DNA of 7,145 bases. Source: Nitrospinota bacterium (GTDB lineage Bacteria > Tectomicrobia > Entotheonellia > J063). This document shows positions 2,128-7,145 of this stretch, piece by piece; position 1 is the stretch's first letter; every line of letters starts with the position of its first letter. A program made the translations under genes and the position numbers. The stretch is from NCBI GenBank assembly GCA_003696125.1, contig RFHZ01000003.1, positions 1-7,145 of the forward strand, given 5' to 3'. The notes under the pieces were generated by a model, which saw only the letters and a list, made by a program, of their open reading frames with translations, made no database searches and was not told where the DNA came from.

Positions 2128-2154
2128 TAAAGTTTCCTCTGGTTTGAACGATAT
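2128..2154 (+). promoter_or_regulatory. Predicted sigma-28 (FliA/SigD) promoter
   Basis: TAAAGTTT at 2128-2135 is identical to the enterobacterial sigma-28 -35 consensus. It is followed by exactly 11 nt and then AACGATAT at 2147-2154, against the -10 consensus GCCGATAA (core CGATA intact, 5 of 8 overall). A start near 2161 would leave a leader of about 58 nt before the ATG at 2219. The site lies in the only sizeable gap between the cytochrome genes and the chemotaxis-type genes, in the right orientation to drive 2219 onwards. It is a consensus match by eye; no transcript data are available. Confidence 0.72.
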
Positions 2155-2203
2155 GGGTAGTAGGAAGAGTCTGTCCTGATCACACCCGGTAATGGTCAAG
2201 AAA

Positions 2204-2210
2204 GGAGGAG
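2204..2210 (+). promoter_or_regulatory. Ribosome binding site that fixes the start at 2219
   Basis: AAAGGAGGAG at 2201-2210 is a strong Shine-Dalgarno sequence 8-10 nt before the ATG at 2219. It lies inside the longer reading frame that begins with an ATG at 2192, which has no comparable site upstream. This supports the shorter start and gives a conventional signal peptide. Confidence 0.75.
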
Positions 2211-2218
2211 TAGATAAG

Positions 2219-3136
2219 ATGCACCATCGTCACCTGGGGAACACCCTTCTCCTGCTTGGTTGTCTCCTTCTGCTGGGAATGGCCTGGCAGGTAAGCTCTC
2301 AGGCCGCACCTTACCGCGAAGTGCTCTGCCGCCAGGGAGACCAGGCTCCACCGGTAAACGGGAGGGAAGATCCGGTATGGGAGGCCTATCCAGAGTATGT
2401 TGTCCTGGACAGGGTTTCTGGCCAGAAGATATTCCTGAAGACGATGTATGTAGACGATACCATATACTTTCTGGTCAGGTACAGCGATCCGGACAAAAAC
2501 GACCAGCACAAGCCCTGGGTGTGGAACCAGGATATGGAAGCGTATGTGCCGGGAAAACAACGGGAAGATACCTTTGTCTTCAAATTTGCCATGGACCAGG
2601 CCACAACCGATCTCTCCAGCTTTGCCGATGAGGAGTACATTGCCGACGTCTGGTACTGGAAGGCGGCCCGGACCAATGGGGTCGGCTATGCCGACGACAA
2701 GCTCCATATCCTGAGCACCCAGCCGGGGAAAAAGGCACAAAAGGTTACCAGCAAAAGCGGGAAAACGATGTACCTGATGCGGCTCGGAGATAAAGGGAGA
2801 TCGGCCTATACCAGCACGGTGTACGCGGAAAAGATCCAGGAGGTCATGCCCAAGTACATCCTGCGCCAGCCGACCGGGAGTCGAGCCGATGTGCGGGCCA
2901 AAGGGGAATGGAGAGATGGGATGTGGACGATCGTGTTTGCCCGGAAGCTCCAGACCGGACATGAGGACGATGTGCAGTTTGTTCCCGGGAAGACGTATAA
3001 GTTCGGGGTCTCCATCCACGGGCTCTACGGAGAACCGCTGCCGCAATCCCCTGAGGCCAACCTCTACGGCAAGGGCCGGATTTCGGAGATGCTCTTACTG
3101 CACCTGGAATCACAGGTGGCCATGACGAACCGTTGA
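2219..3136 (+). CDS. Exported ethylbenzene dehydrogenase-related (EB_dh) haem-binding-domain protein
   Basis: With the ATG at 2219 the protein has 305 residues. Residues 1-30 form a signal peptide: His/Arg n-region, two Leu-rich runs, and a likely cleavage near SSQAA, giving a periplasmic product. The body resembles the EB_dh family, the beta-sandwich fold of the haem b-binding gamma subunit of ethylbenzene dehydrogenase and related molybdoenzymes. Supporting marks are the early P-V-N-G-x-x-D-P-V-W (45-54), DVWYWKAARTN followed by GYADD (143-160), and D-G-M-W-T-I-V-F-A-R-K-L-Q-T-G (233-247) leading to a D-D-V-Q-F segment. Family gamma subunits ligate haem b with Met and Lys; Met125 and Lys258/Lys261 are plausible counterparts, but this is inference. 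No CXXCH is present. An LLGC at residues 12-15 looks like a lipobox, but the hydrophobic run continues past it, so a lipoprotein is less likely. No molybdoenzyme gene is nearby. A sigma-28-like promoter lies upstream and a two-CW/chemoreceptor pair downstream, suggesting a sensory rather than catalytic role. Confidence 0.82.
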   Translation: MHHRHLGNTLLLLGCLLLLGMAWQVSSQAAPYREVLCRQGDQAPPVNGREDPVWEAYPEYVVLDRVSGQKIFLKTMYVDDTIYFLVRYSDPDKNDQHKPWVWNQDMEAYVPGKQREDTFVFKFAMDQATTDLSSFADEEYIADVWYWKAARTNGVGYADDKLHILSTQPGKKAQKVTSKSGKTMYLMRLGDKGRSAYTSTVYAEKIQEVMPKYILRQPTGSRADVRAKGEWRDGMWTIVFARKLQTGHEDDVQFVPGKTYKFGVSIHGLYGEPLPQSPEANLYGKGRISEMLLLHLESQVAMTNR

Positions 3137-3297
3137 GCCTGGCTGTCTGGAGGCGATCGTAAGGGACCGGTGGATATGCTAAGCGTCCTCTAGCACGGTT
3201 TTGCGTGCTCAGGGCTTTGTAATCTACCTTTCGTGAGCAGCGATGCTCACAAGATCCGGAGGAGTAAAGGTTAAAATCTGGAAAGGAGTGGAAAGAG
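3137..3297 (+). other. 161-nt leader with two hairpins between EB_dh and two-CW genes
   Basis: No open frame of note fills this gap. It contains two perfect inverted repeats: AGCACG/CGTGCT (3192-3197 with 3204-3209, loop GTTTTG) and GTGAGCA/TGCTCAC (3233-3239 with 3244-3250) closed by a GNRA-type GCGA tetraloop. ACCTTT at 3226-3231 can also pair with AAAGGT at 3266-3271, enclosing the second hairpin and a GGAGGAG run. Neither hairpin is followed by a T tract, so they are not standard intrinsic terminators. They may be mRNA processing or stability elements or part of a structured leader. No known riboswitch consensus was recognised. Confidence 0.5.
3283..3288 (+). promoter_or_regulatory. Ribosome binding site for the two-CW gene
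   Basis: AAGGAG lies 9 nt before the ATG at 3298. It is separate from the earlier GGAGGAG (3258-3264) that could be enclosed by the ACCTTT/AAAGGT pairing, so translation of this gene need not depend on that structure. Confidence 0.65.
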
Positions 3298-3597
3298 ATG
3301 TTACGGCAAAACTGTTGGGAAGTGAAGCAATGCGGGAGAGAGCCGGGAGGAGCCAGGGTCAACGAACTGGGAGTCTGCCCGGCTGCCAGCGATACCTCTG
3401 CCCATGGGCTTAACGGGGGCAAGAACGGGGGAAGAATCTGCTGGGCCGTTACCGGTACCTTCTGCGGTGGCCAGGTGCAGGGAACCTTTGCCCAGAAACG
3501 CCTCTCCTGCATGAATTGCGAGTTCTTCAAGCAGGTGCAACAAGAAGAGGGAACCCAGTTTCTCCTCCTGATGCCCGGTCAGAAGTATTCAGCGTAA
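3298..3597 (+). CDS. Two-CW domain protein (small seven-cysteine protein)
   Basis: This 99-residue protein has no signal peptide or membrane segment, so it is probably cytoplasmic. It carries seven cysteines in a conserved-looking order: NCWE (Cys6), Cys12 in KQCGREPGG, Cys27 in ELGVCPAA, Cys48 in ICWAVTGT, Cys56 in FCGG, and Cys71/Cys74 in SCMNC followed by EFF. The paired CW motifs and the CGREPGG and C-W-A-V-x-G-T-x-C blocks match what is known as the two-CW domain, a family of unknown function seen as small standalone proteins and near or within signalling proteins. The cysteine spacing suggests a metal site (zinc or Fe-S) or a redox-active disulfide system, but nothing here decides between them. 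The gene sits 60 nt upstream of the chemoreceptor start in the same direction, so the pair is probably co-transcribed and the protein may modulate receptor signalling. Confidence 0.85.
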   Translation: MLRQNCWEVKQCGREPGGARVNELGVCPAASDTSAHGLNGGKNGGRICWAVTGTFCGGQVQGTFAQKRLSCMNCEFFKQVQQEEGTQFLLLMPGQKYSA

Positions 3598-3657: not shown

Positions 3658-5766
3658 ATGTCGATACACCGTATCAAGCTACTCTTTTTACTCCTCTTTG
3701 GTCTGGGAGTGCTCACCATCAACCTTCTGGCCTACCGCGCCACGGAAAAGGTGGATAAACGGTTTCAACTGGCCGTGCAGGCCCAGGAGAGGTATGCGGC
3801 AGGCCTGGAGAAGCTCCTGCTGGAAAAGGAAAAACAGCAGGACATGTTGATCAAGGCCGTCAAAGCCCTGGAAACCGATGTGCAGCAAACGGAAAAGCTC
3901 ATGGCCGATCTACGGGCATTGCAGGCCCGGTTTGTGGAGGGGATCGTCAACGAGGATCTCGATTTCTCTGCCATCATCCAGGATGCCACCACCCTCATCA
4001 GGCAGGAAGATACCCTGTTGCAGCGCTTTGGTCCAGCGGTGCAACCAGAAATCACCGGGTACATCCAGAGCGTGAAGAAGTTCCGTGCCGCCATCATCGG
4101 GTACCAGGCAGAAGCCGAGGAACGCACGACCGGTGCCGGTGTTCGCCAGATGGAGAAGGCCGCGCATCAGGCAGTCACCGAAGCCGACCGCTTTATTGAG
4201 CGCCTAAAGTCGAAGATCCGTCACCAATCCGAAGCCCAGCTCGCCGCCATCATCCAGCAGGTGAGCCGGCCTGAACAGCGACCGGTACGCCAGGAGGTCG
4301 AAGTGCAGGAGCAACAGGTGCTGATCCTGCTCAACGTCCTGCTCGGGATCTTCGGCATGTTCCTGATCGTCCTCCTGGTGGGCATGATCATGCGTCCTAT
4401 CCGCCGGGTGGCAGATGTGGCCACCCGCATCGCCCGCGGGGATATCGATCAGCGCATCGACTATCAGGCCCGGGACGAGATCGGGACCCTGGCCCAAGCC
4501 TTTCGGGAACTCATCGACTACATCAAAGGGGTTGCCCGGGCCATGGAACAACTCGGCAAAGGAGAGCTGACCACCCAGGTTGCGGTCCGCTCCGAACACG
4601 ATCTCCTCTCGCAAAGCTTCCTGCGGGCTACAGAGTCCCTGCACGGCTTGCTGGAGGAGGTCGAACACCTGATCCAGGCGGCGCAGGAAGGGAGGCTGCA
4701 CGAGCGGGGAAAAGCCGGACAGTTTCAGGGGGTCTATGCCCATCTGATCCGGCGCATCAACGCCATGCTGGATGCGGTCACCACCCCTATCAACGAGGCG
4801 GCAGCGGTACTGCAACGGGTGGCGGCCCGGGATCTGACCGTGCGCGTACAGGGAGGGTACCAGGGGGCATATGCCAGGATTGAGCAGGCGCTGAACACGG
4901 CGCTCACGAATCTGGATGACAGCTTCTCCCAGGTAGCCATGGCGGCAGAACAGGTGGCAAGCGCGGCGGAGTGGATCAGCAAGGGGAATCAACGCCTGGT
5001 CCAGACGACTTTCCGGCAGGCCGGCACCCTGGAAGATGTCTGGGGGAGTCTGCAAGAGATGACCTCCATGAGCAAGCAGAACAGTGCGCATGCGCACGAG
5101 GCCCGGCACCTGGCAGACCAGGCGCGTTTGAGTGCGGAACGAGGCGTGGAGAGTATGCAACGCCTGTCCAGGGCCATAGATAAGATCAAGACCTCGGCAG
5201 ATGCAACGGCCAAGATCGTGCAGACGATCGACGAGATCGCTTTTCAGACCAACCTGTTAGCCTTAAACGCAGCGGTAGAAGCGGCACGAGCCGGTGAAGC
5301 CGGGAAAGGCTTTGCGGTGGTGGCCGAAGAAGTCCGCAATCTGGCCATGCGCAGCGCAGAAGCGGCTCAGAACACGGCCCATATGATCGCGGAATCGATC
5401 CAGAATACCGAAGAAGGGGTGATCTCCAACCAGGAAGTCTTGCAAAACCTGGCCGAGATCAACCGGCAGGTGCAGGCGGTCAGTGCGGTCATGGAGGAGA
5501 TCGCCACCGCTTCGCAGCAACAGACCCAGAAGGTAGAGGCGATCAATGCCGTCATCGAACAGATGAATCAGGGCACCCAGCAGGCGGTGGTGAGTACCGA
5601 AGAGTCAGCCAGTGCCGCCGAAGAACTCTCCAAGCAGGCGGAGATGCTCCAGAACCTGGTCGCCTCGTTTCACCTGAGCGGGCAGGTATCCTCCCCTCCA
5701 GGGGAAGAAACCGGGAACGGCTCTCCTCCCCCCTCCCGGCCGGCAGAAGCGTTGAGCGAGGCCTGA
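3658..5766 (+). CDS. Methyl-accepting chemotaxis protein with tandem HAMP modules
   Basis: The 702-residue receptor has a first membrane helix at about residues 6-26, then a periplasmic region to about 220 that reads as almost entirely helical with heptad-like character and no cysteine. No Cache or PAS signature was seen, so it resembles a four-helix-bundle sensor. The second membrane helix is about 221-245. A canonical HAMP follows (247-290, starting [18 protein letters not shown], with DEIGTL), then three further HAMP-like repeats at about 292-343, 336-386 and 377-425. The cytoplasmic signalling domain has the typical hairpin tip at 525-562 ([20 protein letters not shown] onward to EEVRNL), which contacts CheA and CheW. 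The tail (about 672-702) is Pro/Gly/Ser-rich and lacks a CheR-tethering NWETF-type pentapeptide. It lies downstream of the two-CW and EB_dh genes. The ligand is unknown; a helical sensor domain is compatible with sensing through a separate periplasmic protein. Confidence 0.95.
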
Positions 5767-5808: not shown

Positions 5809-6567
5809 CCTCCTAGAAGCTATAGCGGACCCCCATGTACAGGTTGGTGTTCTTGGCAAACTGACCGAAAAAGGTGTGAGCCTCTTCCCCCACAAAGAGG
5901 TTCCCCCCCATCTCTGCGGCCCAGCGGTCATTGATCTTGTAGTGTACCCGGGGTCGCAGGTAGGCATCGTTGTCGGATGGGGAGTAGAAGGTGAAGAGGG
6001 AAAGCTCCAGATCCTGGTTCCAGAGGAGTTTGGTCAGGCGCAGCGTGAGCAGGTGCCGGTTCTCATCGGCCACCGGGCTTCCTGGAGGGAGGGAACGCCG
6101 GAAGGCGGCATGCTCCATCATGTGCTCCAGGTTGTACTGGAAGGCGACGGTGAAGTTTTTGGCCACCTCCTGCTCATAGCCGATCAGGAAGCGGAACTCG
6201 CTGTTCCGGATCAGGGGATCATCCCCCTGGCGATCATCTTCCGAGTCGTAGTACCCGATCTCCAGGTGACCGATCCCTTTCCCCACCACCCCTCGTATAC
6301 TCGCCCCGTACACCGCCAGAGGGGGAAAGGTCGCCCTTCCCGATACCGGGTCCATCCCCCCCGGACTCTTCCAGAACCCGTGGTACCCGTAGATCGCCAG
6401 CTCATACCCCTTGATCGTCTTGTACAGGCGCCAGGCCAGCTCATCATCGCGGAACCAGCGGTTGGGGATGGCTGCCTCCACCACCGCGTCCCGACCGGTC
6501 CGCCGGCCCAGGCGGGTATTGAAGAAGGAGATCCGCCGGCCGTCGATGAAGCGATCCGGGTCAAAAC

Positions 6568-6574
6568 GGGGGGG
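6568..6574 (-). other. C7 homopolymer at the frameshift
   Basis: Seven G on the plus strand (C7 on the coding strand) sit exactly where the reading frame of the beta-barrel gene changes. With C7 the coding frame ends at TGA within three codons; with C6 it continues to the Phe-terminated barrel end. Runs like this slip during replication and are also a common site of sequencing indels. Confidence 0.8.
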
Positions 6575-7070
6575 TGTAGACCAGATCCAGGTTGAGCAGC
6601 GAGCTGAACAGGGAGACCTTGAGGGCATCGGAGGGTGCCTTGAGGTACTCCGGGTCCCGGCCGATAAAGAAGGCGTTCCAGTCTTTGGGGAAGAGATCGT
6701 TGATGAAGATCAGATCCCCGGTTCCCCAGGTCAGGATCTGGCGTCCGATCTTGACATCCATAAAACCGGTGAGCCGGAGGGCCAGATTCGCCTCGCGCAG
6801 ATCCACCGCCCCCTCCCCTCTCTCCAGGCGGATCCGGTGGCGATCCAGCACCGGATCGAAGAGGAGGTCGGTGGTGAGTCGAAACGCCACCCGCTCCCAG
6901 GGCTTTTCCAGCTCTAACTGGAGACGGGTCTCACCGATGGAGACCGCTTTTTCCTCTGGATCCTCCTGGGTGCGCATCCCGAACCGCGCTTCCCAGAACC
7001 CGGAGAGTTCCAGGGGGAAGGGGGTGGGTGGGGCTTCCTCTGGAGGGAGGGTCGTCTCCGGTGGTGCTTC

Positions 7071-7130
7071 CAGCCCGGCCGGCAGACCCGGTTCTTCCTC
7101 CAGTCCGGCCGGGAGACCCGGCTCCTCTTC
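7071..7130 (-). repeat. Two 30-bp tandem repeats encoding a Pro/Glu-rich decapeptide
   Basis: Positions 7071-7100 and 7101-7130 are 30-bp units that differ at only a few bases. On the minus strand they encode EEEPGLPAGL twice, and a partial related unit (GLEGVEEE) continues to the right edge. They lie in the low-complexity linker before the beta-barrel of the frameshifted gene. The array may extend past the window. Confidence 0.75.
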
Positions 7131-7145
7131 TACCCCTTCCAGTCC

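Follow-up and report, generated by a model that had tools for sequence, protein, structure and literature searches.

Gene organization of the locus

The window, that is, the whole 7,145-nt stretch analysed here, carries on its plus strand a cytochrome c gene (1606-2109) followed by three genes of different families. The first of these encodes a 305-amino-acid EB_dh-family protein (2219-3136; PF09459, 82 bits, cut-off 33.3) with an N-terminal signal-peptide-like helix. The second encodes a 99-amino-acid two-CW domain protein (3298-3597; NF045718, 112 bits, cut-off 35), whose start is not signal-peptide-like and which is the only match of its family in the genome. The third, assigned with Pfam, encodes a methyl-accepting chemotaxis protein (MCP) of 702 amino acids from ATG 3658 (3658-5766), in an ORF that opens with GTG 3622. 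The MCP consists of a periplasmic domain (residues about 30-215), two HAMP domains and the MCP signalling domain; the periplasmic domain is all-helical in the predicted model (pLDDT 88.4) and is shared with kinases that partner EB_dh. No gene for a molybdenum or Fe-S subunit of a molybdoenzyme was found in the window.

Judged from their arrangement, the EB_dh, two-CW and MCP genes likely form one transcription unit. The gap of 161 nt between EB_dh and two-CW counts against a single unit. This gap contains two perfect inverted repeats without a T run, at 3192-3209 (AGCACG-gttttg-CGTGCT) and 3233-3250 (GTGAGCA-gcga-TGCTCAC), which may be processing or attenuation elements; the overall folding of the gap was unremarkable (z −1.1), and no Rfam families were found in the window. 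The two ends of the window hold one gene each. The gene at 2-1609 runs off the contig edge and encodes a large cytochrome c in which cytochrome c domains are repeated and several CXXCH motifs occur. The other, on the minus strand, is porin-like and appears divided between overlapping frames, 5813-6628 and 6561-7145, close to a run of G; a frameshift, either present in the genome itself or made by the assembly, is the probable cause.

A candidate sigma-28 site upstream of the EB_dh gene

The stop codon of the cytochrome c gene ends 18 nt before a FliA-type site on the plus strand. Its −35-like element TAAAGTTT (2128-2135) matches the FliA consensus at 8/8 positions. After an 11-nt spacer (2136-2146) follows the −10-like element AACGATAT (2147-2154), which matches 5/8 positions of GCCGATAA, with the core CGATA intact and the flanking bases off. 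Compared with the consensus TAAAGTTT-n11-GCCGATAA as printed in PMC2859248, 13/16 bases of TAAAGTTT-N11-AACGATAT (2128-2154) are matched, and the TAAA −35 core and CGAT −10 core lie in octamers 11 nt apart, as in FliA-type sites. With up to 3 mismatches allowed, this was the sole match in the whole window, while 200 dinucleotide shuffles of the window gave a mean of 0.01 matches. The near-consensus FliA/SigD site with an 11-nt spacer that the sequence-only reading had reported is thus present where it was placed and is unique in the window. The imperfect −10 element (5/8) would count against reading it as a promoter.

For the EB_dh gene, ATG 2219 is the more likely start than 2192, with the Shine-Dalgarno sequence AGGAGG, read from the sequence, at 2203-2208 on the plus strand. 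The −10 element ends 64 nt before this ATG, and the position of the candidate site would put the transcript start at about 2161. No sigma-70-type promoter-like site was found between the cytochrome c stop (2109) and ATG 2219, and no terminator-like site between the same stop and EB_dh.

Sigma-28-type sites in the host genome

The host genome (4.18 Mb in 990 contigs, 94.8% complete, 8% contamination) encodes FliA (TIGR02479, 283.5 bits, over the cut-off), together with FlgM and flagellin. The FliA/SigD gene on which the sequence-only reading had made its proposal depend is therefore present, at 283 bits. Sites in the genome were searched by pattern. The strict TAAAG-CGATA pattern gave 7 matches against 0 for the reversed control, and a three-mismatch search gave 26 against 9. 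The best matches stand upstream of the genes for flagellin and FlgM, a DUF5752 gene and a response regulator/SpoIIE gene. The match before the DUF5752 gene (L019, 1501-1527) is the only perfect one in the genome (16/16), which suggests a link to motility for this family of unknown role.

A scoring matrix was trained on 5 of the best sites of the host genome, including those of flagellin and FlgM. It gave 23.8 bits for FlgM, 23.3 for flagellin, 18.1 for the window site, 16.2 for the site of a CheR-CheW-MCP operon and 12.2 for that of a CheA-MCP operon; only the last three scores are independent, because the flagellin and FlgM sites had been used in training. In the ranking that had been proposed as a check, the window site therefore stands above two other chemotaxis/MCP operons and below flagellin and FlgM. 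Random sequence reached 18 bits at 0.33-2 matches per Mb per strand, which corresponds to a chance of roughly 3e-5 to 2e-4 in the 109-nt upstream region. Since chance alone would give 3-17 matches of this score across the genome, the matrix score by itself is no proof of function.

Gene order and phylogeny of EB_dh relatives

An alignment search gave 56 loci, 38 of which (L077-L114) were 36-46% identical to the window protein in the best segment. Three (L097, L108, L112) could not be judged and were left out, leaving 35 evaluable relatives. In 31 of these 35, from about ten phyla, a transmembrane transducer is encoded on the same strand directly downstream of EB_dh or, in 11 of the 31, directly after an intervening PhnD-type binding protein. 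The transducers are histidine or hybrid histidine kinases, GGDEF/EAL proteins and, at L095, an MCP. The count includes L077, L085 and L087 (at contig ends) and L092 on the HAMP/PAS part or sensor similarity only, and L088, whose neighbour is a short HAMP-type sensor. EB_dh had no adjoining transducer at L079, L082 and L083, which belong to one lineage, and at L110. The same annotation showed no transducer next to the more distant EB_dh genes (L118-L132), several of which stand beside cytochromes. At locus L048 (9164-11331, genome G090), a KaiB-domain protein is encoded directly before EB_dh, PhnD and a HAMP-PAS-GGDEF-EAL protein.

In a tree of 58 rows, the transducer-linked EB_dh proteins split from the others at 100/97 support, with the window protein inside the transducer-linked clade. 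The transducer label changes 4 times on this tree against 18.7 times when shuffled. The window protein clusters with L077 and L080 (95/80). The hybrid kinase of L080 has a sensor related to that of the window MCP (25% identity over 132-145 residues), and a two-CW domain sits between its PAS and HisKA domains. A profile built from 20 sensors of EB_dh partners gave the sensor of the window MCP 38.5 bits, whereas none of 3 other MCPs of the genome scored above 14.9.

These comparisons suggest that the EB_dh proteins of this clade, across about ten phyla, are probably periplasmic sensors of the adjoining membrane signalling proteins. The proposal that the window protein was recruited to sensing gains support here, from the neighbours and the separate clade, independently of the promoter. 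The sensory clade is the stronger finding, and we regard both the promoter call and the sensing call as well supported, if indirectly.

Fold of the EB_dh protein

EbdC and NxrC, which belong to Pfam EB_dh, are gamma subunits of type II DMSO-reductase-family enzymes. The AlphaFold2 model of the window protein (mean pLDDT 89.7) matched NxrC at Z 19.4 (202 residues, 2.6 A) and EbdC at Z 18.9; CBM9 modules were next, at Z 13-14. The same fold extends over about 190-200 residues in the window protein and in EbdC/NxrC, and the WxWKA strand motif is common to them. They differ in that identity is 13-20% and that no molybdoenzyme subunit genes stand alongside the window gene. With the NCBIfam model DMSO_red_II_gam the protein scored 24.8 bits, below the cut-off of 169.85.

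In NxrC, Met155 and Lys305 are the haem ligands, as in EbdC (PMC8387239); the Met/Lys ligands of the two are drawn from PMC8387239 and PMC8840923. M125 and K285 of the window protein lie near the expected places, their equivalence to the ligands not being structurally fixed. In the clade alignment, Met125 is kept in 27/33 sequences, while a lysine is found in 1/33 at the residue closest to the Lys position. Invariant in the clade are H97, W102, Y109, W145, W147, K148 and R151. The earlier description of a haem-domain EB_dh protein was thus right about the fold, while the haem label is unproven, since conservation of the Met/Lys ligation does not extend to this clade. Haem binding by these proteins is possible.

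Sigma-28-like sites in other lineages

The EB_dh gene was absent from all same-class genomes searched. Among the relatives, well-placed sigma-28-like sites were found 40-51 nt before the EB_dh ATG at L086 (Krumholzibacteria), L089 (Gemmatimonadales) and L100, L104 and L105 (Thiodiazotropha). In five genomes of the Thiodiazotropha group TAAAG-N14-GCCG[AC]T is kept, and spacers and flanks vary. Across 32 genomes, a well-placed site occurred in 5/18 with FliA, all five over the FliA cut-off, against 0/14 without FliA (Fisher p 0.04, a value that ignores the relatedness of the genomes). None of 241 permuted motifs equalled the count of the real motif in the FliA-bearing set. Two FliA-less loci reach 11/16, as expected by chance from the permuted motifs, and the matrix gives neither of them a good score. 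Apart from the window, the positives come from just two independent lineages, and the majority of FliA-bearing relatives have no well-placed site.

In the genomes of the site-bearing relatives, the total count of a loose pattern was not enriched over the reversed control. Its matches include sites upstream of motA (3), MCPs (3), a CheV-type gene and EB_dh (3), and a CCGCTA variant also stands upstream of motA. The EB_dh-MCP pair at L095 (Omnitrophota) has no sigma-28-like site, and in the bin of this locus, reached through L094, no FliA was found over the cut-off.

Discussion

The E. coli MCP genes tar, tsr and aer have sigma-28 (FliA) class 3 promoters. The window site, of the TAAAGTTT-N11-GCCGATAA type, resembles these, and the aer promoter works with TAAAGATA-n11-GCCGACAT (PMC2859248). 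Unlike in the E. coli cases, the first gene of the unit here is EB_dh, and the unit of its relatives can be a kinase operon. That a sigma-28 site stands in front of an EB_dh gene would be explained by the two-CW and MCP genes in the same predicted unit. We consider it probable that the site is a FliA promoter that brings EB_dh, two-CW and MCP into the late flagellar/chemotaxis regulon, and that a separate EB_dh-fold periplasmic sensor works through the MCP. In this mechanism, FliA would drive transcription of the three genes with the late flagellar and chemotaxis genes. In the periplasm, the secreted EB_dh-fold protein would bind or report a cue, either chemical or redox, and dock on the MCP's helical periplasmic domain. 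The MCP would then signal via HAMP to the chemotaxis machinery, while the two-CW protein may act on the cytoplasmic side.

Two other explanations were weighed. The promoter match could be due to chance; in that case EB_dh would be transcribed together with the cytochrome c genes before it and serve respiration, and the MCP would have its own promoter. The cytochrome c gene is on the same strand, its stop lies 109 nt before ATG 2219 with nothing terminator-like in between, EB_dh relatives outside the transducer-linked clade often adjoin cytochromes, and the −10 element is imperfect. The window protein, however, falls inside the transducer-linked clade, the window has no molybdoenzyme gene, and similar sites precede EB_dh homologues in other FliA-bearing lineages, so that we judge this explanation unlikely. 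Alternatively, the sigma-28 promoter could be real and the EB_dh protein share its regulation with motility, yet serve in periplasmic electron transfer or carbohydrate binding and not act via the MCP. The match of the fold to CBM9, a sugar-binding module, and the genes of the clade that stand without a transducer would agree with this. The transducers adjoining EB_dh in most relatives, with three output types and a shared sensor family, argue against it, and we hold it to be quite unlikely.

A sensor working through the MCP would have known counterparts. In three-component sensory systems and binding-protein-assisted chemoreceptors, such as AioX-AioS, TorT-TorS and MalE-Tar, a periplasmic protein acts with a membrane transducer. 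As in these, a separate protein, predicted to be secreted, is encoded here beside a HAMP transducer, and the PhnD-type proteins in EB_dh-transducer operons recall three-component systems. Unlike in these, the constant partner here is an EB_dh-fold protein. A literature search on EB_dh with chemotaxis, kinase or DOMON, covering mostly work outside subscription journals, found no such system described. A more far-reaching reading, which we hold to be less likely than not, is that kinases, c-di-GMP enzymes and chemoreceptors of many phyla share an EB_dh-fold periplasmic protein as their sensor, in a module so far undescribed; that this protein has been brought into the flagellar sigma-28 regulon in several lineages; and that the signal it reads, redox or gas, is sensed by way of haem.

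Respiratory enzyme subunit is the usual annotation of EB_dh proteins. Their neighbours in the genomes compared here indicate that an entire clade of them is probably sensory, and therefore many 'ethylbenzene dehydrogenase' annotations may mislead. The gene pairs named here are places to seek the ligand of an unexplored family that takes in kinases, c-di-GMP enzymes and chemoreceptors, starting with EB_dh.
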